From contig VGIQ01000019.1 in the NCBI GenBank assembly GCA_016867835.1, positions 1-32,627 of the forward strand: 32,627 nt of DNA, written 5' to 3'. This DNA comes from Calditrichota bacterium. GTDB taxonomy: Bacteria; Electryoneota; AABM5-125-24; Hatepunaeales; Hatepunaeaceae. The notes beneath the pieces were generated by a model, which was not told where the DNA came from, did no database searches, and saw only the letters and a program-made list of their open reading frames with translations. Each line of letters begins with the position of its first letter. The stretch's first letter is position 1. Of the stretch, positions 636 to 21,383 are shown piece by piece. The position numbers and the translations under genes are program-made.

Positions 636-1118
636 ATGATGGACATCCATCCGGGTCTGATGATCTGGACCATCATCTCATTCGTCATTCTTCTGGCGAT
701 CCTGAAGAAGTTCGCCTGGGGACCGATCCTCAAGGCGCTCGACGAACGGGAGTTGGGCATCAAGACCAACATCGAACAAGCCCGGGCGGCTCGCGAGGAA
801 GCCGACAAAGCCCTCGCCGAATACAAGCGCAAACTGGCTGAAGCCCAAGCCGAAGCGCAAGCCGTCGTCTCCAAGTCCCGCGCCGATGCCGAGCGGGTCC
901 GCGAGGATCTACTCGCCAAGTCCAAGGAAGAGGCGCAGGGGCTGGTCGAGCGGGCTCGCCGGCAGATCGAGATGGAGACGCAAGCCGCGCTCAACTCGAT
1001 ACGCGCCGAGGTGGCGGACCTGGCGGTGAATGTGGCTTCCAAAGCGATCGGCAAGTCACTGACGCCCGACGTCCACAGCCGTTTGGTCGCTGAATCCCTT
1101 GCGGAGTCGCGCAATTGA
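636..1118 (+). CDS. atpF: ATP synthase F0 subunit b
   Basis: This 160-residue peripheral-stalk subunit connects the membrane sector to F1. One N-terminal membrane helix (about 7-24, IWTIISFVILLAILKKF) is followed by the family motif WGPILKALDERE. A long charged, alanine-rich coiled coil then runs to the C-terminus. The length is normal for the family. Two adjacent ATG codons (636 and 639) are possible starts, and neither has a convincing Shine-Dalgarno sequence. The stop overlaps the TTG start of atpH by four bases, so translation of b and delta is probably coupled. Confidence 0.95.
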   Translation: MMDIHPGLMIWTIISFVILLAILKKFAWGPILKALDERELGIKTNIEQARAAREEADKALAEYKRKLAEAQAEAQAVVSKSRADAERVREDLLAKSKEEAQGLVERARRQIEMETQAALNSIRAEVADLAVNVASKAIGKSLTPDVHSRLVAESLAESRN

Positions 1119-1648
1119 GCGGACTCCTGACGCGGCGCTACGTCGTGCCGCTGTACGAGGTGGCGCTGAAGGCGAACGCTCTCGACGCCGTCGAAGGCGA
1201 CCTGAAGCAACTCGACGGCGCGTTGGCGGCATCGCCCGACCTGAAGCGGCTGCTGCTTAGCCCCTCCGAGCCGCGCGCGGTGAAAAAGCGCCTTCTTGAG
1301 AGGCTGTTCACCGGCGCGTCGCCCTACACGCTGAAGTTTATCGGTCTGGTGATCGACAAGAACCGCCCCGAGGTGCTGCTCGCCGCGAGCCGCCTCTACG
1401 GCGACCTGCTCAACGCCCATCGCGGTATCGTAACCGGTACGGTCGAATCGGCGGTGCCGTTGGGCGAAGCGCTCTTCGGGCAGTTGAAAGCCGCGCTGGG
1501 CGAGCGCTTCGGCGGGAAACTGGAACTGGAGCAACGCGTCGATCCGGGGCTGCTGGGCGGCGTGCGGGTGCGGGTGGGGAACAGCGTCTATGACGGGTCG
1601 GTGAAGGGGCGGCTGGATAGGATTAGAGCCGCTTTGGCTGGACAATGA
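1115..1648 (+). CDS. atpH: ATP synthase F1 subunit delta
   Basis: This 177-residue protein caps F1 and joins it to the b stalk. The N-terminal helical domain begins with the usual RRYVVPLYEVAL pattern. The C-terminal half ends with VDPGLLGGVRVRVGN and then YDGSVKGRLDRIRAAL, the conserved end of delta/OSCP proteins. It starts with TTG inside a TTGA overlap with the atpF stop. Its own stop overlaps the ATG of the next gene (ATGA). That next gene is not an ATP synthase subunit, although atpA would be expected there. Confidence 0.94.
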   Translation: MSGLLTRRYVVPLYEVALKANALDAVEGDLKQLDGALAASPDLKRLLLSPSEPRAVKKRLLERLFTGASPYTLKFIGLVIDKNRPEVLLAASRLYGDLLNAHRGIVTGTVESAVPLGEALFGQLKAALGERFGGKLELEQRVDPGLLGGVRVRVGNSVYDGSVKGRLDRIRAALAGQ

Positions 1649-1932
1649 CCAAGTTGCTCACTATCGACAATTCTCGGCGTATTGAACTGCCTGAAGAAGC
1701 GTTGGAGTCACTCAGAGCCAAACCCGGTGATTCTATTCGGCTGCGGACCTTGGACAACGGAGACGTGGTGCTTGAGCATACCATCGACATTATGGAACTC
1801 TATGGCTCCATTGATCCCAAAGGGATTCATTTGAGCGATGAGGAGTTGGATGGAGCTCTTGGCAAATATAGATTTGAAGACACGTTTAGTGGATTGCCCG
1901 AAGGAATTGGGACTACTTCGAGGGAAGTGTGA
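1645..1932 (+). CDS. AbrB/MazE-like swapped-hairpin DNA-binding protein (antitoxin-like)
   Basis: The 95-residue product has an N-terminal AbrB/SpoVT-type swapped-hairpin domain (about 1-46: IDNSRRIELPEEALESL, KPGD, then paired strands ending VVLEH). A short tail follows with ELYGSI...GIHLSDEELDGAL, as in AbrB-type antitoxins usually paired with PIN-domain toxins. Residues 74-95 do not follow the usual tail and no PIN gene follows. Instead it overlaps the methyltransferase-nuclease gene by four bases (GTGA). Members of this fold autoregulate their operons, so it may act as a controller of the downstream restriction gene; this is inference. Base composition is more AT-rich than the flanking atp genes, which fits horizontal acquisition. 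Confidence 0.72.
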   Translation: MTKLLTIDNSRRIELPEEALESLRAKPGDSIRLRTLDNGDVVLEHTIDIMELYGSIDPKGIHLSDEELDGALGKYRFEDTFSGLPEGIGTTSREV

Positions 1933-3167
1933 AAGATTCAGTGAAAAATCGACTTATCTGCGGCGACAATCTTGTTGAGTTGGCGACATTGCCGACGGAG
2001 TCCGTTGATCTTATCTATATTGACCCGCCTTTCTTCAGCAATCGGAACTATGAGATTGTTTGGGGGGATGAAGCCGAGATTCGCAGTTTTGAGGACCGCT
2101 GGGAAGGCGGAGTCTATGCTTATATCGATTGGATGAAGAAGCGTGTGCAGATCTTATATAGGATTTTAAAACCTACTGGATCATTTTATCTGCATTGCGA
2201 CTGGCATGCTGGACATTATCTCAAAGTCATGCTTGATGATATATTTGGGCGAGAGAACTTTCATAATGAGATTGTTTGGCACTACTTCATGGGCGGGAAA
2301 TCAAGACGCTTCTTCGCTCGAAAGCACGATGTGATATTCTTTTATACGAAGGGCAAGCGATGGACTTTCAATTATGTTGAGGTCGAGCGTCGTCTCCCCA
2401 AAAAGCCCAGTTTAGGAAGTCATAAGCCGCTTGTTCACAAGGGAGATGCCTGGTATAGCACGGTGGGAATGGATGACGTATGGGATATTTCAGGCGTATT
2501 CAACATGAGTAAAGAATACCAGGGCTATAATACACAAAAACCTGAGGAATTGCTTGAGAGGATTATTTGGGCATCATCGAACCCTGGTGATCTTGTCTTG
2601 GACGCATTTTGCGGCTGCGGCACAACGCTGGCAGTTGCACAAAAATACGGAAGAAGGTGGATTGGGATTGACATTTCTCCTTCAGCAATAGCATTGATCA
2701 AGAAACGCTTAGCAACGATAGGAGTGGATGAAGATTCACTGCTAATAACTGGGATGCCGAAGAACTTGGCCGACTTGAGGAAGTTGAAACCGTTCGAGTT
2801 TCAGTACTGGGCAATTAACGAACTGCATGGAACACCAAGCTCAAAGAAGACTGGCGATATGGGAATTGATGGGTTTTCATTCCTCGAGAGCCATCCAATC
2901 CAGGTGAAGCAATCGGATGGTGTTGGAAGAAACGTTGTGGATAACTTTCTATCTGCACTCAAACGTTATTACAAGACTCCCCGACGTCAATATCACGGTC
3001 TAATCATAGGTTTCAGCTTCACCAAAGGAGCATTTGAAGAAGTAGCTCGATTGAAAGGCGAAGGAGTGAACATTGAACTTGTGTTGGTTGAAGATATATT
3101 AGGCCGTAAGATCAGATTTGAGCAAGTTGTTCAGCGCAACCGTCAAAATGGATTGCAAATATCTTGA
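1929..3167 (+). CDS. DNA methyltransferase (beta-class N4/N6-amino type) fused to an Mrr-like nuclease domain
   Basis: In this 412-residue protein the catalytic motif IV (DPPF, 32-35) comes first and the AdoMet-binding motif I (FCGCGTT, 227-233, with GIDIS at 246-250) comes later. That is the beta-class order, with the target-recognition region between (about 110-200). The C-terminal part (about 289-395) resembles the Mrr/type IV restriction endonuclease core. It has GDMGIDG (catalytic Asp D314), then IQVKQ (Q325/K327 of the PD-(D/E)xK-like site), then a segment with GLIIGFSFTKGAFEEVA, as in Mrr proteins. One chain could therefore both modify and cut or sense DNA. It starts with GTG, overlapping the AbrB-like gene by four bases. 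AT-rich codon use contrasts with atpH and atpA. Methyltransferase identity is strong; the nuclease domain is a motif-level call. Confidence 0.85.
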   Translation: MKDSVKNRLICGDNLVELATLPTESVDLIYIDPPFFSNRNYEIVWGDEAEIRSFEDRWEGGVYAYIDWMKKRVQILYRILKPTGSFYLHCDWHAGHYLKVMLDDIFGRENFHNEIVWHYFMGGKSRRFFARKHDVIFFYTKGKRWTFNYVEVERRLPKKPSLGSHKPLVHKGDAWYSTVGMDDVWDISGVFNMSKEYQGYNTQKPEELLERIIWASSNPGDLVLDAFCGCGTTLAVAQKYGRRWIGIDISPSAIALIKKRLATIGVDEDSLLITGMPKNLADLRKLKPFEFQYWAINELHGTPSSKKTGDMGIDGFSFLESHPIQVKQSDGVGRNVVDNFLSALKRYYKTPRRQYHGLIIGFSFTKGAFEEVARLKGEGVNIELVLVEDILGRKIRFEQVVQRNRQNGLQIS

Positions 3168-3202
3168 TCTTGCGCCTGTCACCATCATTTACATTGGCAT
3201 TG

Positions 3203-3241
3203 ACACCCGTCATCAGTCATCACTCATCAGTCATTTAGCAC
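3203..3241 (+). promoter_or_regulatory. G-poor leader of atpA with short direct repeats, no Shine-Dalgarno
   Basis: The 39 bases before the atpA ATG contain only four Gs. They include two copies of ATCAGTCAT (3212-3220 and 3226-3234) and no purine-rich ribosome binding site. The leader composition resembles those of atpE and atpD. A role in SD-independent initiation is inferred. Confidence 0.4.
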
Positions 3242-4762
<1,521 letters not shown>

Positions 4763-4859
4763 AGAACGAGGCAACACCCCGGTTGATGTCATCTAAGCGC
4801 GATGTGAGTACAATTCAGGATTCCTGTACGTCACACTCTAACCATCTTCTGACTTTGCG

Positions 4860-6332
4860 TTGCTTGTGAAGACAGGATCAGCCTTTAAGGGCAATACCCG
4901 CACCGGAATCGGCCTTATGCTGTTGTTGTTGACCGGGTTCTCGATCTACTTGCCTACGACCGGAATCAAGCCGTCCGGAGATGATTTTGACAAGTTTTTG
5001 CCGTCTATTATCGCTTCAGAAACTTCGTGGCCGGCGCTCTTTTCTCCCTTGATAAGACCGATTCCCTATAATATGTATCGACCCGGCGGTGCGTGGGTCT
5101 TGCAGGGTCTTGGAGAAAGGCTGTTCGGTAATGGAGCACAGGGCGGCCAGTGGATCAAATTAGCGGTCTATCTGGCGTCTTTAATGCTAATATATCGGAT
5201 AGCGAGACGGCTATTCGATGGGTCAATTCCGGCATTGCTTGCGATGGGGCTGACGATCTTCCATCCTCAAATGCACGCTGCCATTGCTTCAATAGACGGA
5301 ACTGCAGATGTGGTTTCCACGTTCTTTCTATTAGTTGCTGTTTTAGCGATGCTGCGAGCCACTCAGGAACCAGGTAGTTATGATAATTTGATTATTGGTC
5401 TGGCTACTATAGGCGGCCTGATGTTCAAAGAAAATGCCGTAGCCATTCCGGCCTGCCTCGGTATATTACTTCTCGCACGAGCCGATTGGATGCGAAATCG
5501 GAGACTTTGGCTGGGAGTCATGTTAAGCGCGATTATAGTTTTAATTTACATCGCCATTAGGATTGTGGCGGGGCTGACAATACCTGGCTCCGGGCGTTAT
5601 GCACTATCGTTACTTAATATTCCGGTGAATCTTGCGCTACTTGTTGGCGGTGCAGTGGTAACTACCAATACTGTCACGATCTATACTGAGCGGGGCATAT
5701 ATTTGGTATGGGGGGCAATATCAGGATTGGTATTGTTCCTCCCCATTTCACTTGGCTTATTCTCTGTTCAAAGTCGCAATCGAAAGCATGACCTGAGACT
5801 CACTCTGATGCTTGTGTTGGCGGCGGTTTTTTCACAGGTTCCCTCATTATTGATGGAACATATTAGTGAAATGCACCTCTATCGCAGTCTGCCCTTTCTA
5901 TGTATGGTTGCGGCGATAGGATTGACTCGTGCCTTTAATGCAACCTCTCGAGTATTACGAGCCTTAGTGATATCAACACTGCTTGTCTTTTTACTCACCG
6001 GATTAAACAGCATAGATGCAAAGCAAGAGTTTCTTTATGATAACGGTGCGAGAGCCAATCGAATGTTGATGCAAATACGGCGGGCCGTTCCCGATCCAGA
6101 GAAGAGATCCAAATTCTGGCTCATTCCGGATAGATCAACAGGCGAAATTCGTGAGTATAGCATTTATCAACAGAAAGCCAATACGATCATTGCTTACAAT
6201 CCTGTGACCTATCTTTACCGACGAAGCGATTTGCTTTCGATTGTCGAACCTACAAAGACCGATACTCAGGGTGTCAAAGTATATTATTTCCGAATTATGC
6301 CTGGTGATTCCATACTTTATCTTGGTCGGTAG
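4860..6332 (+). CDS. Multi-pass membrane protein resembling GT-C/PMT-family glycosyltransferases
   Basis: The product is about 490 residues with some ten hydrophobic segments, starting at about 15-33. The first external loop carries an acidic pair (GDDFDKF, D41-D42), where GT-C glycosyltransferases keep their catalytic acidic residues. A following YRPGG segment and a long run of helices resemble dolichyl-phosphate-mannose/PMT-like or TMTC-like proteins. Such enzymes use lipid-linked sugars at the outer face of the membrane. The C-terminal soluble part (about 400-490) has no recognised domain. The TTG at 4860 is the longest start and the GTG at 4866 is equally possible; neither has an SD. Composition is clearly more AT-rich than the atp genes on either side, suggesting acquisition. 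No link to ATP synthesis is apparent. The family assignment is tentative. Confidence 0.6.
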   Translation: MLVKTGSAFKGNTRTGIGLMLLLLTGFSIYLPTTGIKPSGDDFDKFLPSIIASETSWPALFSPLIRPIPYNMYRPGGAWVLQGLGERLFGNGAQGGQWIKLAVYLASLMLIYRIARRLFDGSIPALLAMGLTIFHPQMHAAIASIDGTADVVSTFFLLVAVLAMLRATQEPGSYDNLIIGLATIGGLMFKENAVAIPACLGILLLARADWMRNRRLWLGVMLSAIIVLIYIAIRIVAGLTIPGSGRYALSLLNIPVNLALLVGGAVVTTNTVTIYTERGIYLVWGAISGLVLFLPISLGLFSVQSRNRKHDLRLTLMLVLAAVFSQVPSLLMEHISEMHLYRSLPFLCMVAAIGLTRAFNATSRVLRALVISTLLVFLLTGLNSIDAKQEFLYDNGARANRMLMQIRRAVPDPEKRSKFWLIPDRSTGEIREYSIYQQKANTIIAYNPVTYLYRRSDLLSIVEPTKTDTQGVKVYYFRIMPGDSILYLGR

Positions 6333-6374
6333 CGAAAATACTGCCGGTCGTCGGATTCCGTTCAAGTCTCCCTA

Positions 6375-7232
6375 ATGCCTTCGCTTAAACAAATCAAACG
6401 CCGCATCACCGGCGTCAAGAGCACCGCCCAAATCACCCGCGCGATGAAGATGGTCGCCGCGGCGAAGTTGAAGCGCACCCAGACCAATATGGAGCGCTCG
6501 CGGCCCTATTCGCGGCGGCTCTCGGAATTGATCGCTGCGCTGGCTGCGCATACCGACGCGTCGCTCCATCCGCTCCTCGCGGTCCGTCCGCCCGAGCGGG
6601 TCGGAGTCGTTGCCGTTACGTCCGATCGCGGCCTCTGCGGATCGTTCAATGCCAACATCTGTCGCCGAACCCAGCGCGTCCTGAGGGAGCACGAGTCGGC
6701 AACGGTGGAACTCTTCACCATCGGGCGCAAGGGCTACGACTTCTTTCGCAAGCGCGGAGTAAGGATACACAAGCACTTTCCGGGGGTCTTCCACGAACTG
6801 GAGTTCTCCCAGGCGGCAGCCATCGGTGCCGGCATCGTCGATCTCTATACCAGCGGCGACTTTGACCGTATCTATTTGGTCTATAACGAGTTCAAGAACG
6901 CCATCCAGCAGCGGATCATCGCCGAGCAATTGTTGCCCGTCGATACCTCCGGCATCCTGCACACTGCCCGCTCGACCGAGTTCGTTTATGAGCCTTCGCC
7001 TGAAGCGGTGCTGGATAAGTTGCTTCCGCTATTCGTCAACATTAAGATCTGGCACGTGTTGCTTGAGTCGTATGCTGCTGAGCAGGGTGCCCGGATGTCG
7101 GCAATGGAGAATGCTACCGACAACGCAACCGAATTGCTCTCCGACCTCTCGCTGCAATACAACAAAGCGCGTCAAGCGGCTATCACCAAGGAATTGCTCG
7201 AAATCGTCGGCGGCGCTGAGGGATTGAAGTAA
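6375..7232 (+). CDS. atpG: ATP synthase F1 subunit gamma
   Basis: This 285-residue central-stalk subunit rotates inside alpha3beta3. The N-terminal helix begins with the family signature (IKRRITGVKSTAQITRAMKM, then VAAAKL). The central Rossmann-like region contains VAVTSDRGLCGSFN. The C-terminal helix contains RMSAMENATDNA and ends NKARQAAITKELLEIVGGA. All are canonical. The gene begins 42 bases after the membrane glycosyltransferase-like gene, with no clear ribosome binding site. It is separated from atpD by a lipoprotein gene. Confidence 0.96.
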   Translation: MPSLKQIKRRITGVKSTAQITRAMKMVAAAKLKRTQTNMERSRPYSRRLSELIAALAAHTDASLHPLLAVRPPERVGVVAVTSDRGLCGSFNANICRRTQRVLREHESATVELFTIGRKGYDFFRKRGVRIHKHFPGVFHELEFSQAAAIGAGIVDLYTSGDFDRIYLVYNEFKNAIQQRIIAEQLLPVDTSGILHTARSTEFVYEPSPEAVLDKLLPLFVNIKIWHVLLESYAAEQGARMSAMENATDNATELLSDLSLQYNKARQAAITKELLEIVGGAEGLK

Positions 7233-7282
7233 GCAGCGCAGTCGGACGTTAGTAGCCCTAATCAACCTTAACCGGATGTCAT

Positions 7283-9756
<2,474 letters not shown>

Positions 9757-9863: not shown

Positions 9864-9892
9864 TTGACAATGCGCTGTTTCGTGATTATTAT
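9864..9892 (+). promoter_or_regulatory. Near-consensus sigma70-type promoter for the TPR/Exb cluster
   Basis: TTGACA at 9864-9869 and TATTAT at 9887-9892 are separated by exactly 17 bases. They lie in the 208-base gap between atpC and the first TPR gene, about 70 bases before its start. The gap otherwise holds only small potential hairpins. Confidence 0.75.
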
Positions 9893-9964: not shown

Positions 9965-12649
9965 GTGGAATTGTCGATTCGCCGATCGCTGATCGGACTG
10001 ATTAGCCTTGCCACCCTCGCGATCTCTCTTGCCCCCTTGCGCCTGTCGGCAGCAGAGAGTGGCGAGCCCGACTCGTCCGATGCCCTTTATCGCGCCTATT
10101 CCGAATTCTACTTCCTGCGGCGCTGGGTCGAGTCCCGGCATGAGTTGATACTTCGCGAGTCATTCCTCGCCTGGCTCTATCAGAGTGCGGCTGCTGAGGC
10201 TGAAGCGCGCGCGGCTCAAAATCCTGCTGCCGTGCTTGAAGCTATGACGCCTCCCGAACTGTCGGGCTGGAGCGAAGACCATTATCTCCCTGAAGAACTC
10301 CCCGAGGATGCCCCTCTTAGGATTCGATTCCGGCAGGTTCTCGACTTTGAGCGCGACGAATTCAACCACAAGTATCTCCAGGCTCGTCTGATCAAGGATC
10401 GGCTGATCGCATCCGCCAACCCGGTCGAACGGAAGCGAATGTTCCGGCGCGACCTTGAGACAGCCCTGTTGGCTTATCGCGATAACGACTATCGTGCCGC
10501 GCTCCTCAGGTTCGATGAGTGTCTCGAAGCCTACGGTTACAGCGATGTCGCCGATGTGGCTTACTATCGCGGTGAGACTTTTCTGGCGTTGAACCTCTAC
10601 GACCAGGCGTATGCCGATTTCCGCTTCGTCGTGGAGCGAACCGCTGAACCGGGTCTTCGTCGCAAATCCCTTGGGCGCTTAGTATCGCTGGCCGGTGACC
10701 GGGGTGATGCCGCCGGCTTGAAGGAGGTGCTCAACCTTTACACCTCCGAGTTCGGCGCTATGTCGGACGCTAACTACTGGCAGACCATAGACGTCGCGGC
10801 ACGCTACTTTTTCGCTGCCGGGAATTGGACAGCCGCAAGGACGCAATCCCTTTCCATTCCTGACAAGTCGGATCGCTACGCCGCAGCGCAGTTGCGCGCC
10901 GCCAATTGTTCTCTCGCTCTTCTCGACCTTGAGGATGCCGAAGAGCGCTTCACCGCGCTATCCAGTCATTCCGGCAAGGATGCAGATGTCAATATCGCTC
11001 GCGAGGCGCAGGTCAAGATAGGCATCATCAATTACTTGCGTGGCGATTGCGACATCGCCTTTACGGAATTTACCCGGATCAAAGGCACTGATGAACTGGC
11101 CGAGCAGGCCGAGTTGATGAGCGCCTGGGCGCTCTATAAACTGAACGCCCTGAGGCAGGCGCGCGAACTGCTACGCCGGTTCATCGATACCCATCCCGGC
11201 AGCCAATACCTTTATGAGGCTCAATGCCTGGACGGCTTCTGCGCCGAACTGATGGGTGAAAACAGCACGGCACTCGAGCACTACCGGCGGGTGATGTCGG
11301 CTCTTGACGACCGGCAGGACTTCCACGACTATAACTATGAACTGAAGTCCATTTCCGAGGTTCAAGGCGCCCTCGCCGGCCTTGAGGAAGCCCTGTTTGT
11401 AGAGGCTGAGCGCGAGTATTTCGATAGTTACGTGGCACTGCATCGCAAGATGATGCAGTTGACTCAAGGGGTTCGGTTCTCCCGGGCTATAAAGACGACG
11501 CCACTCCTAAAGGAAATCATCGCCGAACAGGCTGCCCTGGGTGATCTTTTCAGCCAGCAGGATGCTCTGGAGAGTGCAATCTACGAGACCCAGGACAGTA
11601 AACTGCTTGCCGAATACGAGGCGATCGTCAACCGCCTCTATGAAGCCGGCGGCGATCTTGGTTCGGCATCGGCTTTCTATCTAAAGCAACGTTCCTTGAT
11701 CCAGCGCGAGCAAGATCAGGCGTTTGAAGCATTGATGGCCGACACCCTCGCAGCACGGCTTGAGCGGGAATGGAGCGCATCGCAGGAAACCATAGCACTG
11801 CTCAAAGCCGAGCGCGCCCGAGTCGGCGGTGACGATCCCGAAATGGCTATCGACCTGGCTGGTCTTGAGGTCGATCTGACCGCACTGCAGGATCGTATTC
11901 TTAGAGTCCGCAGCGATTTGCGAAGGATCGGACAGGATCACGTCGTCAGCCGGCTCGAAGACTGGAGTGATTTCGCCTATCGTCGCTACACTTTCGGCGG
12001 CGTCAATTTCGACGACCTCTACGCCCGGCTCGACCGGCTCGAAGCACTTGATACCCATATCCGGACGGCTGGAAAGGTCTTGCAGGATCGCCGGGCGGTC
12101 CACCGTGAAGCGGTTCCCCTCGATGAAAACCTTACCCTTGCCAGCGCCCCAGGTGAGGCTCCTTACTTTGCACCCATGGTGCCGCTTTGGGGACTGGAAT
12201 CGTCTGGTGATGATGCCGCTCCTTCATCCTTGGAAATGGCGCCGCTTGAGGAGGCTGCGCCTGATACCGCCGCTCCCGACACAGGAACGGTGATTCCCGA
12301 GCCGGTGGGTGATGCACCAATCGAGACGCAGCCTGCTCCACCATCGGAAACCGAATCGGAAGTCCGTCCTCCAGAGTCTTCGCCCGAGCCTACGCCCGAA
12401 CCGGATCCTTCGCCCGAGCCTGAGCCAGAGCCTGAGCCTACTCCTGAACCTGAGCCATCGCCCGAGCCTCCATCCGAACCGACTCCCGTGCCGGAGCCAA
12501 CTCCTGAGCCTGTGCCATCGCCCGAGCCTGAGCCATCGCCCGAGCCTGAGCCTGAACCTGAACCTGAGCCCACTCCGCCCTCAGAACCCGAGAGTGCACC
12601 TGAAGAACCTTCGGGAGGTAATTCCAGTGATGCGGAGGGCAATCGATGA
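9965..12649 (+). CDS. Exported TPR-repeat protein with Pro/Glu-rich C-terminal tail
   Basis: The 894-residue product begins with an N-terminal signal sequence (basic RR at 6-7, hydrophobic to about 28, LRLSAAES cleavage region). TPR-like helical pairs follow (for example [25 protein letters not shown] and [25 protein letters not shown], each seen as shorter blocks in the sequence). A coiled-coil region lies near 590-690. The last 110 or so residues are a Pro/Glu/Ser-rich tail that could span the periplasm or peptidoglycan. TPR proteins of this size next to ExbB/ExbD are often parts of gliding or envelope-transport machines; that role is inferred. GTG at 9965 is the longest start. TTG at 9971, six bases after GGAG, is a good alternative. 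It overlaps the next gene by four bases (ATGA). Confidence 0.8.
12382..12580 (+). repeat. Degenerate PEPxPEP-encoding tandem repeat
   Basis: The DNA encodes runs of Pro-Glu and Ser/Thr-Pro dipeptides built from CCTGAGCC/CCCGAGCC units, inside the 3' end of the first TPR gene. Extended Pro-Glu tails of this kind are rod-like and resemble the spacer regions of TonB proteins. The repeat DNA is prone to length change. Confidence 0.8.
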
Positions 12650-15600
12650 GAAATCGCCTCTACGCTCTACCTTTGGCGCTCGTGCTCGCCTTGATGGTCC
12701 TTTCAGGTCTGATGCAACTGATCGCGCAGGAACCCGAGGAGAACGAGGATTCACTAAAGGTCGTTCTCGGCCTCGAACAACTTCCTCCTGACGTCCGCGG
12801 ACGCTGGATAGGCTTGCGCAACCAGGTGGATCCAGAGCGCTATGGCGACCTGCTCGGCGAAGGCGAACTGCTCCTCTGGCAGTTGGGAGAATTGCGCCAG
12901 TCGATCGGGATACGGCCACCCACACCCGATATGCCGGCTTATAGCCTATATAGCAGTATCGAAGGCCGGCTGATATCACTTCTCGATAAGATTCAACTCG
13001 CCATCGTCCTGAAGATGCCGGACGAGGAGTTGGAAGGACTGCTTGATTATTACCGCAGCGAAAAGGAGAGCCTTGTGGCGGGAGCGCGCTCCGAGCGACA
13101 ACGCCTGATCGACGAAGGTGTCGCCCTCCTCCGCCAGCATGAGAACGATCCCTACTTCCTGCGTTATCCGCATCGTCGTGCGGCTATAGCAGACCTTTAC
13201 TTCCGGCTCACCGAACTGATTTACGAGGAGTCTTACGACCGGTTCCTCGATGAGACCGACACCTATATAGCCCAACTCGACTCGCTCTCCAAGGTTAACC
13301 CTCAGGCGGTGCAGGGATTGATCCCGCCCAAGCCCGACTATAGCCGGGTATTGGCGATGTATCAGCGCATCGTAGATGAGTTTCCCGCAAGCCAGTTTGC
13401 CGACGACGCACTCTACAACCTCGCGGTGTTGTTCGGTGAAAGCGAGCATCAGAGCGACCGGGTCCAAGCCAACCGGCTGCATGAAACTTTGCTTCGAGTC
13501 TATCCGGAAAGCGACTATCGGCTCAATTCCCTTCGGCGGATCGGCGAATTCTACTTCAACCCGCCGGTCAACGACCTCGAAAAGTCCGTTGAGATCTACC
13601 AACAGATCGCAACCGAGTTCAGCGACACCGAATACCTAAGCGAAGCCTGGTATAAACTCGGTTGGTGCTACTACCGGATGAACGAGATTGAGGCGGCAGT
13701 TGAGCACTTTGCCCGTTCGCTTGACGCAGCGCGCTACGATGAGAGCCGTTCCGCCGGATCCGGAGGGATCGACATCGCCACCGAGTCGATCAACTACATC
13801 GGCATCTGCTTTGCCATCGATCCCCGGGACTGGAAAGGCGCCGGAATCGGCAATTTGGTCGCCTGGCTCGACACGAATCCCGAACGAAGGACTCGCTACG
13901 GCCGCCGGTTGATCGTCCAGTTGGGCGACATCTATCATCTGCAAATTGGTCGCCATGCAGATGCCGTCGAGGCTTATGAGCGGTTCGTCGCATTCTATCC
14001 GCTCGATCCACGCACCTGGAAGATCGCTCGCAGTGTCGTAGAAATTTTCCAAAGCGGCGAGATTTACAATCCACAGCGCGCCTACGGCGAGAAGATCAAG
14101 TTTTTCCAGACCTTCAGTCCCGATTCTGTCTGGTGGGCCGCGAACGATGATCCAGCCGGGCGTAATGAACTTACTATTCTGCTTGAGAGTTATCTCGATC
14201 TGATCCTGCAGGAAACCCTGGCGCTGGCGAGCCAGTCGAACTCACCGGAACTATTTGCCGACTACGAGCGCTTTGCCCGCCAGTATCTCCGCTTTTGGCC
14301 GCACGGTCCAAATGCTTATCGAATCCATTACAACCTCGCCTCCTCGCTCGAGAAGAGCCGCGACAAGCGTATGCTGGCTTTGCGCGAATACTGGCAGGTC
14401 GTCAACGCCTACACTGACACCTCCAATCGAGCCGTTGCTGCTCAGCGCATAGTCGGCATAGCACAGGATTTGATGAAGGAAGAGCGCGAAGGGACGATTC
14501 GCCTCACCGCCCAGGGCACAATTGAACCGGGAGTGGGAGTCGTTGCCGATGCAGCCGTTGACACCTCCGTCGCTCTGCCGATACCGACTCCGTTAATGAA
14601 TGGAGAAGCGCTCCTTCTCACCTCGTTCGACCTGTTTGTCAGCCTTTATCCGGCATCCCCGCTGGTGCAGCAGATGCTTTATCAGGCCGGGAGCATTCTC
14701 TACGACCACAACCGGTTCGCCGATTCGCGCCTCTATCTGGAGCGACTTCTTGCCGAGTTCCCGGACAGTAAGTTTACCGAGGATGCCTACACCTTGCTCC
14801 TCGAAAGTCGGTTCCGGATGAATGAGTTTGCCGAGGTCGAGGGGATCGCGGCTCGGATCAAGGACGCAAAGGTCTCGGACAAACTTCGCGAAGCCGCCGG
14901 CAAGCGCAAGGCCGAGTCGGTCTTCCTCAACGCATCGAATCTGAAGCAGGGTGAGGATCACTACGCGGCAGCGGCAGAATTCCGACGCGTTGCACTCGAA
15001 TCACCAGACTTTCAATTCGCCGACCGGTCGCTCTTTCAAGCCGGACTCGAGTTCAACCTGGCCGAAGCCTGGAAAGAGGCTAACGAGGCCTTTCTCTTGC
15101 TCGCCGACCGCTATCCCAAGTCGGAGTTTGGCGACAAGTCACTTTACAATGCCGGCTTCAACCTCCAGAGCAATCTGAAACAGCCGGCCCAATCAGCTGC
15201 AGTCTTTGAGCGACTAGCCAACGCCTTCCCGCAGTCCGATCTGACCCAGGGTGCGCTCTCCAATGCCAGCGCCAACTTCAATCAGGTGGAGGATCACCGT
15301 TCGGCAATCCGGGTCAATGAACTCTACGTTAAACTCTACCCCGCGGCTGAGGATGCAAGCGTCTATCTCTTTGAGAATGCGTCGCACTACCTGAAGCTGG
15401 GCGAGGTTGATAAAGCCAACGACATCTATCGCCGCTTTGCCGAGCGTTATCCCGACGATCCGCGCACTGTGCAAGCCTATTTCGAGCGTGGCAAATACCT
15501 CCTCGATAAAGGTGACCGCGCCGGTTCCGCCAAGGAATATACCGCCACTGTCGATGCTCATCAGCGACTGGTAGGACGCGATCTTGCCGGTTCACCGCGC

Positions 15601-18054
15601 TATGCTTCGCAAGCCCTTTCGGCGCTTCTCCTTTGGGAACAGGAAGAGTATGCCAAACTCCGCCTGAATGTCCCTGAGGCGCAGTTCGCCGCTACCAAGG
15701 AGCGCAAGAAGCAGTGGCGCAATGCGATGGTCGAGAAGTATCAGCAACTGGCCCGACTTGGTCAGAAGGAAGCCTACCGGGCTTTCTACCAGATGGGACT
15801 TCTCGACGAGGACTTCGCTCGCAACACCTACGCCCTCGAGAATCCTCCCGGAAAGACCGATCAAGCCCGACAGGAGGCGCTCGCCAAACTGATTGACGAG
15901 TCGATTATCCTGAATCTCGTCGCTGCGCAGACCTACCGCAGCGGATACGACAATCTTACCGGCATTATCCAGCCGCTTGAGCAGGAGCGCGCCAAACGCG
16001 GCGTTGAATTCGCTAGTTACAGCGAAATGGTCGCACGCCTGCAGAAGGACGAATCTGCAATTGGGGTTGCCGATTCGCTCTCCAGGATGACCAGTCTCCA
16101 ACGGGCACTGGTGGAACTCGACTCGGCGCTTATCGAAGCTCAGCGTTGGTCGGACTCCTGCCGATTGAAGATTCCTGAAGTTGTCTTCCGCAATGGCGAC
16201 TATCTGACTCGCCTCTGGAAGTCGAGTGGCTTCAATGTCCGTTCGACCGACAAGGACGAGGAGGTTCGAATGCTCTTCCGTGAGGAAGCAGTCAAGAACC
16301 TGGTCACACCGCTGGCACCGGAAGTGATTGGGCAGTATGCTCAAGCCCTCCTGACGGCACGTGAGGTCGGACTTGCCGAACCCTGGCGCAGCCGGGCCGA
16401 GCAAGGTTACGCCGCAACGCTCGATACACTCTTGTCGCAGTATGTCGAGCAAGTTAATCTGGCTCAATCGCGCCTCGATCGCTACATCGGGCAGTATGAG
16501 ACGATGCTCCCCCGGGGAGGGAACGCCAAGTCTCCCCAAGGCTTCTATCCCGATGAAATGGGTGGCATCATCCTCGATCAGATCGAGTATGTGAATGCCT
16601 TCTTGGGTGATTTGCTTGCGGCTTACCGGCTAACGCTCGACACCCTCGCATCGTATCATCTGCCCTATGGCTTCGGCGAACAAGCCAACAATAAGGCACT
16701 CGGCTATCTGCTTGAAAAGGCCAATCAGTTTCAACGTTATATAGAAGATGCCCGCCGGCGTCACGAGCAGTATGCCGCGAAGTATGATGAGACGAGCGAG
16801 ATTCACTGGGACGACGCTGCGGTGGCCTTCGAAGACGCCGCCGGCAATTTCGCAACCTATGAGGCTGCACTGCTCGAGGGGGCGTTCCAGTTGCGTCAGG
16901 ACTATGCACTTTCGGGTGAGACCGGCATCGAAATCATGCATCGCCTGATTGCCCTCAACCCCGATCGATATGCGGCAATGGCAGGCATTGCGGCGCAGCA
17001 AAACGCGATCGTGACCGATGCCCGGTGGAAAATCTGGGCGGAAAGTGTGGACGGCTTCCAGGATGTGCAATTCGACGATGGAGAATGGCTTGCTTCAGTT
17101 GAGTCCCGCTTCCCGGGCGGATCGGCATTTGGAATCCTCGACAGCCTGGGTGCGCGTTCAATCTGGTTTAGTCGCGAACGGCCGCTTCCGGTTACCCAGG
17201 TAATAGAAGTCCCGGTCGAGACTCCTCCACCGGCGGAAACGCCTGCCCCTGTAGAATCGTCTTCCGACACGACCGGATCCGATTCTATAGCCGGCGAAGC
17301 GACCGAAATGGATATGCTCTCACTTGAGGAGTCAGCCGAAAGTGATACTTCGGGTGGATCGGGAGAAGATGCGATGCCTGAGGATACCCTTGCAAGTGCC
17401 GGGGAGACGCCTACGACAACGCCGGCCCCTTTCACACCGCCGCCTCCCGAACGTCGCACCATTGAAGTAATTCCCCCCGAGGAAGAGGCGCTATACCGCC
17501 TCTGGATGGAGTCCGACAGCGCCGGTGTTCGTCGCTACTGGTTCCGCCGGACTTTCGCGCTCGAAGAGAAACCGACATCGGGCCGAGTCTGGGCTACCGC
17601 CGACGACAACTACAGCCTATTCGTCAACGGCACATATGTGTCCGAAGACAAGCCGGACGAGGTTGACTGGCAGATGGTCGATGAGATCAACATCACCGAT
17701 TACCTGCAGGTTGGACGAAACGTCATTGCCTTCGAGGCTTCGGATGTGGACGCGACGCGCTATGGGCTGCTCGCCGGTCTGATCTACGAGGTCGTCCCGG
17801 ATCTTCAGAAACAACTTTCTTCGGTCGTAGATCGAGCCCGGCAGGAAGACCTTCGGCGCAAGTCTGAGAGTGCTGCCTGGTTGAGGTTCGCCGGCACACC
17901 CAAGACGCCGCAGGCAACCCCCGAAACTGTTGCCATCAGCGTAACTCCAGCACCCGGAGAAGAGCTCTCCACGCCGCCGAGGCCTGCTGTCGAGAAGCCG
18001 ACTCCGGAACAGTTGCACGACTTTCGCGTCAACATAAGGAACAAGTTGCGCTAA
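12646..18054 (+). CDS. Giant exported TPR protein with C-terminal galactose-binding-like domain
   Basis: This 1802-residue protein begins with a signal peptide or anchor (hydrophobic about 9-27). Many tetratricopeptide-type units follow between about 220 and 1000 (patterns such as [42 protein letters not shown]). A long helical, coiled-coil-like middle (about 1000-1500) comes next. An acidic Pro/Ser/Thr-rich linker spans about 1525-1610. Residues about 1615-1715 form a beta-rich domain ([17 protein letters not shown] ... [11 protein letters not shown]) like the N-terminal sandwich of rhamnosidases and other galactose-binding-like folds, which often bind sugars. GGAGG (12634-12638) precedes the ATG by seven bases. 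It lies between another TPR gene and exbB/exbD, suggesting a structural or cargo part of the same envelope complex. Confidence 0.82.
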
Positions 18055-18386
18055 TGGACTATTCCAAACATCCGCGACCGTTATTCTGGAGCATAGCCGC
18101 AGTTGCGGTGGTGACTTCCTCGCTTCCGGCTCAGCAACCCGCCAGGAGCGGATCCGAAGAGGTCCTAATGCTGGAGGAGATCCGCATCGAAGTCCAGCCT
18201 GAGCGTCCTACGGTCGTCATCACCATTCCGCGACAGCGCCCTTCCATCAAGCCGGTAGCGCTGAGCAAGGACATTGAGACCCTGGCGCAAGGTGAAGCGC
18301 ACCGGGTAAAGCCCCGACTTTCCGATCTGACACCGGCTCAGGTCGAAGATGAGCAAAAGATGCTTGCCAAAGAGCGAACGCCGTAG
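18054..18386 (+). CDS. Small exported protein of unknown function in the TPR/Exb cluster
   Basis: The 110-residue product starts one base inside the upstream stop (TAATG), so it is probably coupled to the giant TPR gene. A signal peptide is likely (hydrophobic about 10-25, ending LPAQQ). The mature part has a beta-like stretch EEIRIEVQPERPTVVITIP followed by a charged tail rich in Lys, Glu and Pro. It matches no family I recognise. Its fixed position between a TPR protein and ExbB suggests an accessory periplasmic component. Confidence 0.65.
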   Translation: MDYSKHPRPLFWSIAAVAVVTSSLPAQQPARSGSEEVLMLEEIRIEVQPERPTVVITIPRQRPSIKPVALSKDIETLAQGEAHRVKPRLSDLTPAQVEDEQKMLAKERTP

Positions 18387-18536: not shown

Positions 18537-19178
18537 ATGGCATCGCAATTCTTCCATACGTTCAGCACCAGCGTTCCGGGCTGGCAGATGATGTGGGCGA
18601 TCCTGCTCTTCGGGATCTTCACCATCGCCATAATCATCGAACGCGGGCTCTTCATTTACGTGAAGTCGAACGTCAACGCGAACCTCTTTATGGCGGAGAT
18701 TCGCAAACTGGTGTCAGCAGGCGACTTCAAGAAAGCGATCGCGCTTTGTAAGTCGGCTGGTGAGAAAGCCCTTCCCAAGGTTGTCCATGCGGCTCTCTCT
18801 GAGGCTGACCGCCGGGAGTTCGTCGATTATCGCGCGGTCCAGAACGCTGTGGACGAAGCCACCCTCGAACTGATCCCCAGACTCTCCAAGCGGACCGGCT
18901 TCCTCGCCGTGCTCGGCAACATCGCCACCCTCACCGGTCTTCTTGGCACCATCTACGGTCTGATCATCTCCTTCTCGGCGGCCGGTTCAGCCGGTGGAGG
19001 TGCCGAAGCGTTGGCTCAAGGTATCGGTATTGCGATGTTCACGACTTTGTGGGGCCTTGTCGTTGCCATCCCGGCCATCATCGCCTACACATTGATCAAC
19101 ACCAAGACCAACGACATCATCGACGACATCGACGAGCACTCGGTCAAACTGATACACCTCCTGACCGGAGGCAAGTAA
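18537..19178 (+). CDS. exbB: ExbB/TolQ/MotA-family proton channel protein
   Basis: The 213-residue inner-membrane protein of the proton-driven energising complex has helix 1 at about 18-42. A cytoplasmic segment follows (about 45-118). Helices 2 and 3 lie at about 121-146 and 162-188 and contain the family motif TGLLGTIYGLI and TTLWGLVVAIPA. Threonines T138 and T170 appear to match the conserved pore threonines of ExbB. The start is secured by GGAGGA ten bases upstream. It is followed with no gap by the first exbD. With ExbD it would convert proton flow to motion of the TonB-like partner encoded two genes later. Confidence 0.92.
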   Translation: MASQFFHTFSTSVPGWQMMWAILLFGIFTIAIIIERGLFIYVKSNVNANLFMAEIRKLVSAGDFKKAIALCKSAGEKALPKVVHAALSEADRREFVDYRAVQNAVDEATLELIPRLSKRTGFLAVLGNIATLTGLLGTIYGLIISFSAAGSAGGGAEALAQGIGIAMFTTLWGLVVAIPAIIAYTLINTKTNDIIDDIDEHSVKLIHLLTGGK

Positions 19179-19787
19179 GTGGCTTTCAAACCCTCGCTTA
19201 AGAAGAAGCGGGAGCCGGAAAGCACCGAACTGAACCTGCTGCCGGTGATGAATCTTATCATCGTGCTGATTCCAATGCTCTTGAGCGTTGCAAAGTTGAC
19301 CCAGATGGCGCTCCTCGAATACCTCCCTCCGGCTGAAGCCGCCGAGGCTGAGGATGCGGGCGCGCCGCCGCAAGAGCAAGGCGCCGGCGACAAGCCGACT
19401 ACCCTCAGTCTGCTTGTCAATATCGCCGAATCCGGCTTGCAGGTCAGCATGTTCAATAAGGTCGAGCCGGGTCCTTATTTCTTCGAGATACCTCTGAAGC
19501 CCGATGGTGAATACGATTACGCGACTCTGACCCAACGCCTCTACGAAGTGAAAGAGCGCGAGGTCGGTTCGCCTGTCGGTGCCGATTCGGTGCTGAATGA
19601 CAAAACCGGTCGATATGACGTCTTCCCGACCTACCGGGTCAAAGACGGGCGGGAGGTCTCTATTACCGCCATCGGCCGGACGTCGTTCCAAAACGTAGTC
19701 CGGGTGATGGATGCCTGCCGCAACATCACATTTGCCGGCGAAATGCAGGAACTCTTCCCGATCACGATCCTGAAGCAGTTCCAGTAG
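19179..19787 (+). CDS. exbD: ExbD/TolR-family protein 1, membrane Asp replaced by Asn
   Basis: The 202-residue product has one N-terminal membrane helix (about 18-38) followed by a periplasmic domain. The usual ExbD pattern places an essential protonatable aspartate three residues after the conserved proline. Here the motif is LNLLPVMNLIIVLIPMLL, with N25 at that position. Thus this copy probably cannot carry a proton itself. The periplasmic part is longer than in E. coli ExbD and includes a Glu/Ala/Gly-rich linker (50-70). It starts with GTG directly after the exbB stop, with GGAGG (19167-19171) as ribosome binding site. Confidence 0.85.
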   Translation: MAFKPSLKKKREPESTELNLLPVMNLIIVLIPMLLSVAKLTQMALLEYLPPAEAAEAEDAGAPPQEQGAGDKPTTLSLLVNIAESGLQVSMFNKVEPGPYFFEIPLKPDGEYDYATLTQRLYEVKEREVGSPVGADSVLNDKTGRYDVFPTYRVKDGREVSITAIGRTSFQNVVRVMDACRNITFAGEMQELFPITILKQFQ

Positions 19788-19825
19788 TCTCGATTCCGCA
19801 AGACTTGAACCTCAAGGAACCATAA

Positions 19826-20347
19826 ATGGCGTTTGCACCCTCGAAGAGCGGCAAGCACCGCCGCAAGGAGAAGGGCGAACTCTTGCTCAACTCGATGATG
19901 GACATGATGACCATCATCCTGCTCTTTCTCTTAAAGACGATGGGATCATCGGGAGCCCTGCTCCGGCCCTCGCCCTATGTCTCCCTGCCGGAGGCACAGC
20001 GCGAGAAGGAACCGGAGAAAGGACTCGGAATCCTTATCACCGGAATGGGCGTATTCGAAGATGTTGAGGCGAAACGCGATGCCGCTGGAAACCTTCTGCC
20101 TCCGCGCCAGATTTCGGACACTGAGGAGATGAGCGACCCTGCCAATGTGGTCGTCCCAAGCCTTGAAGACTTCCTCCGCGAGCATAAGGACTTCACCCTC
20201 CGGCTCGGCAAGCCGTTCAAGGGCGAAATCACCGTCCAATGCGATAAAGAGGTAACCTACGACTGGCTGCTTAAAGTGATCAACACCTGCGGCCAGACTG
20301 AATACGCCTCGATCGACTTTGTCGTCCTTAAAGCGAAGAAATCGTGA
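19826..20347 (+). CDS. exbD: ExbD/TolR-family protein 2, membrane Asp retained
   Basis: The 173-residue paralogue has a basic N-terminus, then a membrane helix with LLLNSMMDMMTIILLFLL. D26 sits at the position of the essential ExbD aspartate. A periplasmic domain (about 50-170) ends with a TolR-like fold region (PFKGEITVQCDKEVTYDWLL, seen in shorter blocks). It shares the N-terminal MAFxPS start with the first copy, pointing to ancient duplication. AAGGA (19814-19818) lies seven bases before the ATG. It probably pairs with copy 1 in an ExbB5-ExbD heterodimer. Confidence 0.85.
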   Translation: MAFAPSKSGKHRRKEKGELLLNSMMDMMTIILLFLLKTMGSSGALLRPSPYVSLPEAQREKEPEKGLGILITGMGVFEDVEAKRDAAGNLLPPRQISDTEEMSDPANVVVPSLEDFLREHKDFTLRLGKPFKGEITVQCDKEVTYDWLLKVINTCGQTEYASIDFVVLKAKKS

Positions 20348-20354
20348 GGAAGAT

Positions 20355-21383
20355 ATGACCCAGGCTATGACCTTTCCCCGCGAATTCGAACGCAGTTTCT
20401 TTCGCGACCTCGATCGCAACTTCTTCACCATCTGGCTCATCTGCTTCATCCTGGGCAATGGCATTTGCCTCTATATGGCAGGACAGCCGGTCAAGGAACT
20501 GACTGCGGAGCAAGTGAAGCGCTATACCGAGGCGATCTACCGCGTTAAGACCACCGCCCCAGCCAAGGTTGCCAAGAAGGCTGAGACCAAGGTTGCGGTT
20601 GGGGAGGAGAAACCGGTAGATGAAGCCCCCAAAGTCGAGGAGAAGAAAGCCGAAGTGCGGTCCATGTCGGCTGAAGAGAAAGCCGAGCGTCTTTCTGCCG
20701 AACGTGAAGCCCGCCGCCAGAAGCAGGAGGCGCGCCGTCAGGCCATCGCCGAGCGCGTCAAAATCGTCGCCGGACCGACCGCACGCGGTGGCGCCCGGCG
20801 CGGTGGTGCCGCCGCCGCCCGCGAAGCCATCGGCCTTTCCAGCGGCCAGATGAGCGGCTTCAATGTGAAGGAAATGGTCGGCATGGTGGGAGAAGCCGGC
20901 ACCGCCGAAAAGGTAAAGAAACTGCGCGGCGGAGGCGCAGTATCCGCTGACGTCGGAGATATTGACATCTCGGCTCTGAAGACGACCTTCTCGGCCGATG
21001 AACTCGACCTGATGGTCAATGAAGCGCCGCTGCAGGTCTCCAAGAGTGCCATTACCGCCAAAGGCTCAGGCACCAAAGCCAAACAGCGCAGCCAGGGCGC
21101 AATAGGGGATCTGGTCCTCCAGAACAAGAACCAGGTGCAGTATTGCTACTGGACTCTCAAGAAGCGAGATTCGAGCCTGAAAGGCCGGTTAGTCGTCGAA
21201 TTCACCATTGCTCCATCGGGCGAGGTGATCCGGGTGAGGTTCCGGGAGAGCAACTGGGGCGGCAACAGCCTTGGCGGAGATGTCGAACGCTGCATCGAGA
21301 ACGTTCTGAAGTCGTGGCACTTCGAGGCGATTCCTGACGCTGACGGCAACGTAACGGCCGGCGCGACCTACATATTCGAATAG
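20355..21383 (+). CDS. TonB/AgmX-like energy transducer
   Basis: The 342-residue protein has a cytoplasmic N-terminus and a single membrane helix (about 24-43). A Lys/Glu/Ala-rich extended region (about 60-160) follows. The C-terminal domain (about 250-342) has NKNQVQYCYWTLKKRDSSLKG (as two shorter blocks), VVEFTIAPSGEV, and VERCIENVLKSWHFEAIP. This is the AgmX/PglI-type TonB C-terminal fold, named from gliding-motility and TonB-like proteins. It should transmit ExbB/ExbD motion to an outer-envelope partner. The ATG at 20355 with GAGGA (20346-20350) is preferred over a longer TTG reading at 20319. The terminator at 21411 follows, closing the cluster. Confidence 0.85.
   Translation: MTQAMTFPREFERSFFRDLDRNFFTIWLICFILGNGICLYMAGQPVKELTAEQVKRYTEAIYRVKTTAPAKVAKKAETKVAVGEEKPVDEAPKVEEKKAEVRSMSAEEKAERLSAEREARRQKQEARRQAIAERVKIVAGPTARGGARRGGAAAAREAIGLSSGQMSGFNVKEMVGMVGEAGTAEKVKKLRGGGAVSADVGDIDISALKTTFSADELDLMVNEAPLQVSKSAITAKGSGTKAKQRSQGAIGDLVLQNKNQVQYCYWTLKKRDSSLKGRLVVEFTIAPSGEVIRVRFRESNWGGNSLGGDVERCIENVLKSWHFEAIPDADGNVTAGATYIFE

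Follow-up and report, generated by a model that had tools for sequence, protein, structure and literature searches.

According to models of the MotAB, ExbBD and TolQR motors, two equivalent aspartates alternate and the dimer turns by 36 degrees per proton (PMC12215075). In the solved motors, one Asp touches a Thr of the ring and the other faces the cytoplasmic cavity (PMC12905483). The importance of this residue was demonstrated in Myxococcus xanthus, where the D28N substitution in AglQ abolishes conductance, motility and sporulation (PMC3858216); whether AglQ and AglS associate as hetero- or homodimers is stated as not known in a review of the field (PMC9389320). No report of Asn at the ExbD/TolR site, or of an AglQ–AglS heterodimer, was found in the open-access literature, most subscription journals lying outside this search. 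An operon is analyzed here in which one of two tandem ExbD proteins carries Asn at the proton site and the other Asp.

The window, i.e. the whole stretch of 32,627 nucleotides analyzed, is a single contig from the draft genome of a Calditrichota bacterium (2.9 Mb in 214 contigs). Downstream of ATP synthase genes, it contains a run of plus-strand genes encoding two TPR proteins, a small secreted protein, an ExbB-like protein, two ExbDs (hereafter ExbD1 and ExbD2) and a TonB-like protein:

9965..12649, plus strand: secreted TPR protein, 894 aa (open reading frame; Pfam TPR_6 7e-7, YfiO weak)
12646..18054, plus strand: giant TPR protein, 1802 aa, with tol_pal_ybgF-like repeats (NCBIfam TIGR02795 2.4e-27)
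18054..18386, plus strand: small secreted protein, 110 aa (open reading frame)
18537..19178, plus strand: ExbB/TolQ-like ring subunit, 213 aa (Pfam MotA_ExbB 4.2e-25; alignment to solved TolQ/ExbB; covariation)
19179..19787, plus strand: ExbD1, the acid-free copy, GTG start, 202 aa, TM helix 21-48 (Pfam ExbD PF02472 5.7e-8)
19826..20347, plus strand: ExbD2, the acid-bearing copy, ATG start, 173 aa (Pfam ExbD PF02472 1.4e-9)
20355..21383, plus strand: TonB-like force transducer with one TM helix, a linker and an AgmX/PglI (GltG/GltJ-type) C-terminal domain (NCBIfam NF033768 1.7e-17)

The genes are tightly packed: the start codon of ExbD1 begins at the base following the ExbB stop codon, and the ATG of the TonB-like gene at 20355 lies 7 bases past the stop codon of ExbD2. 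The operon probably opens with the gene for the 894-aa TPR protein, which is preceded by a promoter-like TTGACA-17-TATTAT at 9864-9892 (a consensus match only). The giant TPR protein is secreted, like its 894-aa neighbor, and the 110-aa protein has no family match in Pfam or NCBIfam. Among relatives, the order ExbB–ExbD1–ExbD2 is kept; those with the same operon include the named Candidatus Electryonea, Hatepunaea and Tariuqbacter, which suggests an affinity of the genome with Electryoneota-type bacteria. In 112 long loci, genes near the motor encode the C-terminal domain of the giant TPR protein (52 loci), the small secreted protein (69) and an AgmX-like domain (93). Upstream in the window (636-9756), genes unrelated to ATP synthase break up the series atpF, H, A, G, D and C; their products are, at 1645-3167, a MazE-like antitoxin and an N6_N4 DNA methylase, at 4860-6332, a PMT_2 membrane glycosyltransferase and, at 7283-7810, a small protein without assignment. 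In the TonB-like protein (20355-21383), the His that belongs to the SHLS motif of TonB/TolA is missing from the TM helix. Some relatives (L015 and L016) have a His at this place and others lack it, so that contact with ExbB may differ.

The sequence of ExbD1 reads ELNLLPVMNLIIVLIPMLL, and that of ExbD2 reads ELLLNSMMDMMTIILLFLLK. A preliminary description had placed Asn25 of the first copy and Asp26 of the second at the same proton-carrying position, and this is borne out by the codons (AAT at 19251-19253 and GAC at 19901-19903) and by profile alignment to TolR (9ddm) and E. coli ExbD (6tyi), in which Asn25 falls without gaps on the essential Asp (Asp25 in 6tyi). Two further residues distinguish the copies, Pro32 in ExbD1 (19272-19274) and Lys37 in ExbD2 (19934-19936). 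The preliminary description had also considered that another acid in the first copy might fill the role; the TM helix of the window's ExbD1 offers no acidic residue in its stead, the nearest being Glu47 at its outer end, and the place 14 residues beyond the site (+14) is occupied by Lys. In the ring protein, Thr170 (19044-19046) aligns with the conserved pore Thr of solved TolQ and ExbB and is directly preceded by Thr169 (19041-19043). Thr170 presumably corresponds to Thr181 in E. coli ExbB numbering. The single-chain model of ExbD2 (pLDDT 77.5) has ExbD 8vgc as its top Foldseek match (E 5.5e-3, probability 1.0), while that of ExbD1 (pLDDT 76.6) yields no convincing ExbD match when searched with Foldseek against the PDB; on alignment, the periplasmic domain of ExbD1 proves longer and contains insertions.

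The Asn/Asp pattern is conserved. The pair is present in 23 of 39 genomes of the phylum, with Asp in all 23 ExbD2 sequences and, in the orthologs of ExbD1, Asn in 20, Ser in one and Asp in two; the nearest ExbD1 relative, 76% identical, retains Asn. A wider set was seeded on ExbD2 to avoid selecting on ExbD1: GTDB contigs and 386 genomes were searched with an ExbD2 profile, the adjoining ExbD1 was read at each locus and duplicates were removed. ExbD2 has Asp in 122/122 cases. Among 120 distinct pairs from more than 40 genome families, 108 ExbD1 are non-acidic (102 Asn, 3 Ser and 3 Gly) and 12 have Asp. Asn-type ExbD1 was seen in 44 coded genome families and, beyond these, in Electryoneota and Calditrichota identified by name; a MAG named Caldithrix abyssi (L051) has the Asn/Asp pair. 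Searches seeded on ExbD1 also recover an adjoining Asp-bearing ExbD2; a scan of the GTDB contigs with ExbD1 alone gave no matches, those obtained there coming from the ExbD2 profile. As controls, ordinary ExbDs from the genome of the window and related genomes have Asp in 70 of 71 cases (Gly in the other), ordinary loci with adjacent ExbDs are all-Asp in 19 of 20, and another contig of the window's own genome harbors an ordinary Asp/Asp tandem. One ordinary-looking pair (L218, G412:C1:521300-523100) displays Gly/Asp at the proton site and is perhaps an independent one-acid pair. Three loci of family f77 (L153, L161 and L169) have Asp-bearing ExbD2-type genes with no recognizable ExbD1 or ExbB immediately upstream.

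Other positions of the pore helices vary with the copy. In the ExbD2-seeded set, Pro at +7 from the site accompanies 106 of the 108 non-acidic ExbD1 and none of the 12 acidic ones. Loci added later include two Asp-type ExbD1 with this Pro (L281/L297) and several Asn-type copies without it, which weakens the idea of a strict Asn–Pro coupling. Lys at +11, three helix turns above the Asp (Lys37 in the window), is found in 97/122 ExbD2; at this place the ordinary ExbDs among the control sequences are for the most part uncharged, with Val or some other residue.

The state of ExbD1 is mirrored in the ring. A set of 148 distinct operons, assembled with a deliberate search for Asp-type ExbD1 relatives, comprises 115 operons with non-acidic ExbD1 and 33 with Asp, the latter being partly sought out. 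Position 169 of ExbB is Thr in 112 and Cys in three of the former; in the latter it is Asn in 23, Cys in six and Ala in four, and never Thr. Among the 213 columns of ExbB this one has the strongest association with ExbD1 state, and the adjoining pore Thr170 is unchanged in 148/148; the Thr of the GLLGT motif is likewise found in 114/114 operons. Operon and pair counts are phylogenetically non-independent. The association was also read on a tree of ExbB and ExbD2 (IQ-TREE) from which column 169 had been left out. The acid state of ExbD1 switches seven times on this tree, and where branches are well supported it yields six independent comparisons, all of which (6/6) agree for most pairings, with a median sign-test p of 0.031 (0.031-0.0625) that carries no correction for the post hoc choice of column 169 as the best in the first 114 operons. 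The switch at L281/L297, added after this choice, agrees with the pattern. In this lineage, and in L020/L022 nested within family f6, Asp-type ExbD1 occurs with Ala at ExbB169 and the sister loci (Asn or Gly in ExbD1) have Thr. These two nested switches are the clearest of all; L281/L297 may have returned recently from Asn to Asp, which would make them a test case supplied by nature. Ser23 of ExbD2 also tracks ExbD1 state but is unchanged in both nested switches, and was not counted as a coupled site.

Outside this set the relationship takes another form. Ordinary Asp/Asp ExbBs have Thr-Thr at the two positions in 22/25 cases, so that Thr169 by itself does not bar an acid in ExbD1; a general rule that Thr169 needs a non-acidic ExbD1 was rejected on this ground, and the coupling is restricted to the present ExbD1/ExbD2 family. 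Homologs with Asp in both copies, which the preliminary description had named as counter-evidence, do exist. They are a minority (12/120 in the ExbD2-seeded set and 33/148 after the deliberate search), most pairs being asymmetric, and they include AglRQS-like lineages as well as lineages nested among Asn types. They look like evolutionary switches between two types of motor rather than a refutation.

The two site residues and how they are conserved, the constant order of the genes and the covariation of ExbB with ExbD1 are direct observations; from them we infer that the operon probably encodes an obligate ExbB5:ExbD1:ExbD2 proton motor, related to AglRQS of Myxococcus, in which ExbD2 is the sole acid-bearing chain and which drives the TonB-like AgmX/PglI protein. 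The rotor pair within the ExbB pore would be an obligate heterodimer in a 5:2 complex of the ExbB/ExbD–TolQ/TolR–AglRQS class. Only ExbD2 would offer a protonatable Asp, and ExbD1, whose site holds Asn or, in rare cases, Ser or Gly and is mostly followed by Pro two helix turns on, would be a specialized non-conducting partner to which the ExbB ring is tuned. With one proton site per ring, a full turn would take five rather than 10 protons, in steps of 72 degrees; in an alternative cycle, one chain would work and the other anchor it as a fixed strut. Force would be passed to the TonB-like protein, which would pull on a TPR assembly in the outer membrane or periplasm or set it in motion; with its GltG/GltJ-type end, this output resembles that of Agl-Glt. 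Since D28N leaves AglQ without conductance and cells without motility (PMC3858216) and the environments of the two Asp already differ in solved motors (PMC12905483), an Asn-bearing copy that is still required to function implies an altered mechanism; Pro32 and the changes in the ring presumably make the Asn state workable. The simplest working arrangement pairs ExbD1 with ExbD2 in each ring, because a ring with ExbD1 twice would have no acid by which to conduct protons in the accepted manner. Covariation of its site with the residue beside the pore Thr argues for ExbD1 within the pore or ring. For the one-site asymmetric heterodimer put forward in the preliminary description, the asymmetry of the residues is confirmed, the presence of ExbD1 in the ring has gained support, and the heterodimer itself is retained as the probable arrangement; the Asp/Asp members of the same family speak against it. 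In broader terms, the chances appear evenly balanced that these operons represent a widespread rotary class, with an obligate asymmetric rotor, a coevolved ExbB ring, 72 degrees per proton, five protons per turn and repeated switches to and from the two-acid type.

Other readings of the pair deserve consideration. The rotor could consist of two ExbD2 chains, each with its Asp, and ExbD1 could be an accessory or regulatory paralog outside the pore (a plug, a peptidoglycan clamp or an assembly factor). ExbD2 alone has every hallmark of the class, including its invariant Asp (122/122), and the longer, insertion-bearing periplasmic domain of ExbD1, together with the failure of its model to retrieve a convincing ExbD from the PDB, fits such a role. 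We nevertheless regard this reading as unlikely: ExbD1 has kept the pore-helix motif, with gap-free alignment to TolR/ExbD, its site covaries with the ExbB residue adjoining the pore Thr, and sporulation in Myxococcus requires both AglQ and AglS (PMC3858216). Rotors might also be mixed, ExbD1 and ExbD2 swapping places such that ExbD2:ExbD2 is active, ExbD1:ExbD2 slower and ExbD1:ExbD1 dead, with ExbD1 as a means of tuning gear ratio or proton leak. A single exbB gene followed by two tandem exbD genes is compatible with this, as is the rule of homodimers for ExbD and TolR; conserved one-to-one linkage and diverged motifs (Pro32 in ExbD1, Lys37 in ExbD2) better fit two fixed, non-equivalent positions and make mixing quite improbable.

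That ExbD1 moves protons by another route, through Asn, water or a different acid such as a Glu near the outer end of the helix, so that the motor is functionally two-sited, finds some backing in the 36 of 108 non-acidic ExbD1 with an acid at +1 to +14, mostly Glu at about +14. It is nonetheless very doubtful, as the window has Lys at this outer-end place, 72/108 have no acid there, an acid at this end would lie ~20 angstrom above the site by helix geometry, and the occurrence of Ser and Gly at the site leaves no conserved protonatable group. Finally, the genome is a draft in 214 contigs, and ExbD1 might be decaying or its Asn an artifact of sequencing or assembly. This is scarcely credible: the frame is open, Asn is conserved over more than 40 families and shared by the nearest relative, and chance or sequencing error is ruled out for Asn25 because of its conservation across orthologs.

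Loss of the acid from one ExbD across dozens of families, its partner always having Asp, challenges models in which two acids take turns, and the change that kills AglQ (D28N, PMC3858216) is the natural state of ExbD1 here. A natural one-acid motor with matching changes in the ring would make the questions of alternation and of homo- versus heterodimers directly testable. Being asymmetric, with distinguishable rotor chains, such a 5:2 motor would be ready-made for structural work, and the nested Asn-to-Asp switches, with Ala replacing Thr in ExbB, point to candidate residues for exchange.

Among known systems, AglR-AglQ-AglS of Myxococcus, which powers Agl-Glt gliding and Agl-Nfs sporulation, shares with the window a tandem of two ExbD-like genes behind an ExbB-like one, a TonB-like partner with an AgmX/PglI-type domain (GltG/GltJ) and TPR partners. 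The TonB-like protein scores 63.3 bits with NF033768 (cut-off 40) and 40.5 with the full GltG model (cut-off 650); no Glt-specific genes beyond the TPR and AgmX types were found in the window. Both AglQ and AglS have Asp (PMC9389320), whereas the window's copy in the AglQ position has Asn and Pro, and the neighbor of the pore Thr in its ExbB is Thr in place of Cys or Asn. Because the conserved Asp of both copies is not shared, the motor is not assigned to AglRQS. Asp is found in both copies at L164, whose ExbDs (162 and 194 aa) have the published lengths of AglQ and AglS (PMC3169522), suggesting an AglQ/AglS-type pair.

The Ton system (ExbB5-ExbD2-TonB) resembles the window in the pore motifs of ExbB, the ExbD fold and a TonB-like transducer, but in the window the ExbDs are of two kinds and the essential Asp is missing from one of them; its ring protein scores 51.7 bits with NCBIfam exbB (cut-off 206), and ExbD1 matches no NCBIfam ExbD model. 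Likeness to TolQ-TolR-TolA (Tol-Pal) resides in TolQ as the top NCBIfam match of the ring subunit, at 73.5 bits against a cut-off of 221, and in a YbgF-like TPR neighbor; ExbD2 reaches 14 bits against the TolR cut-off of 127, and neither tolB nor pal was recognized among the window's open reading frames. The TPH-vWA proteins that occur in heterologous pairs with TolQ-like rings also provide two different pore-helix proteins per ring gene; in the available text of that study they have a conserved pore-helix Asp, vWA rather than ExbD periplasmic domains and no reported Asn/Asp asymmetry (PMC12204202). Ordinary adjacent ExbD pairs of Calditrichota and related genomes, tandem exbD genes beside exbB, differ in having Asp in all copies (19/20 loci). 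As for the 5:2 class as a whole, the window has its ring, with a MotA_ExbB domain (4.2e-25) and invariant pore Thr, and its single-TM partner with an essential pore-helix Asp, the invariant Asp26 of ExbD2; the Asp on both chains would hold for an ExbD2:ExbD2 rotor and fail for an ExbD1:ExbD2 pair. These features of the ring and of ExbD2 place the motor within the 5:2 class.
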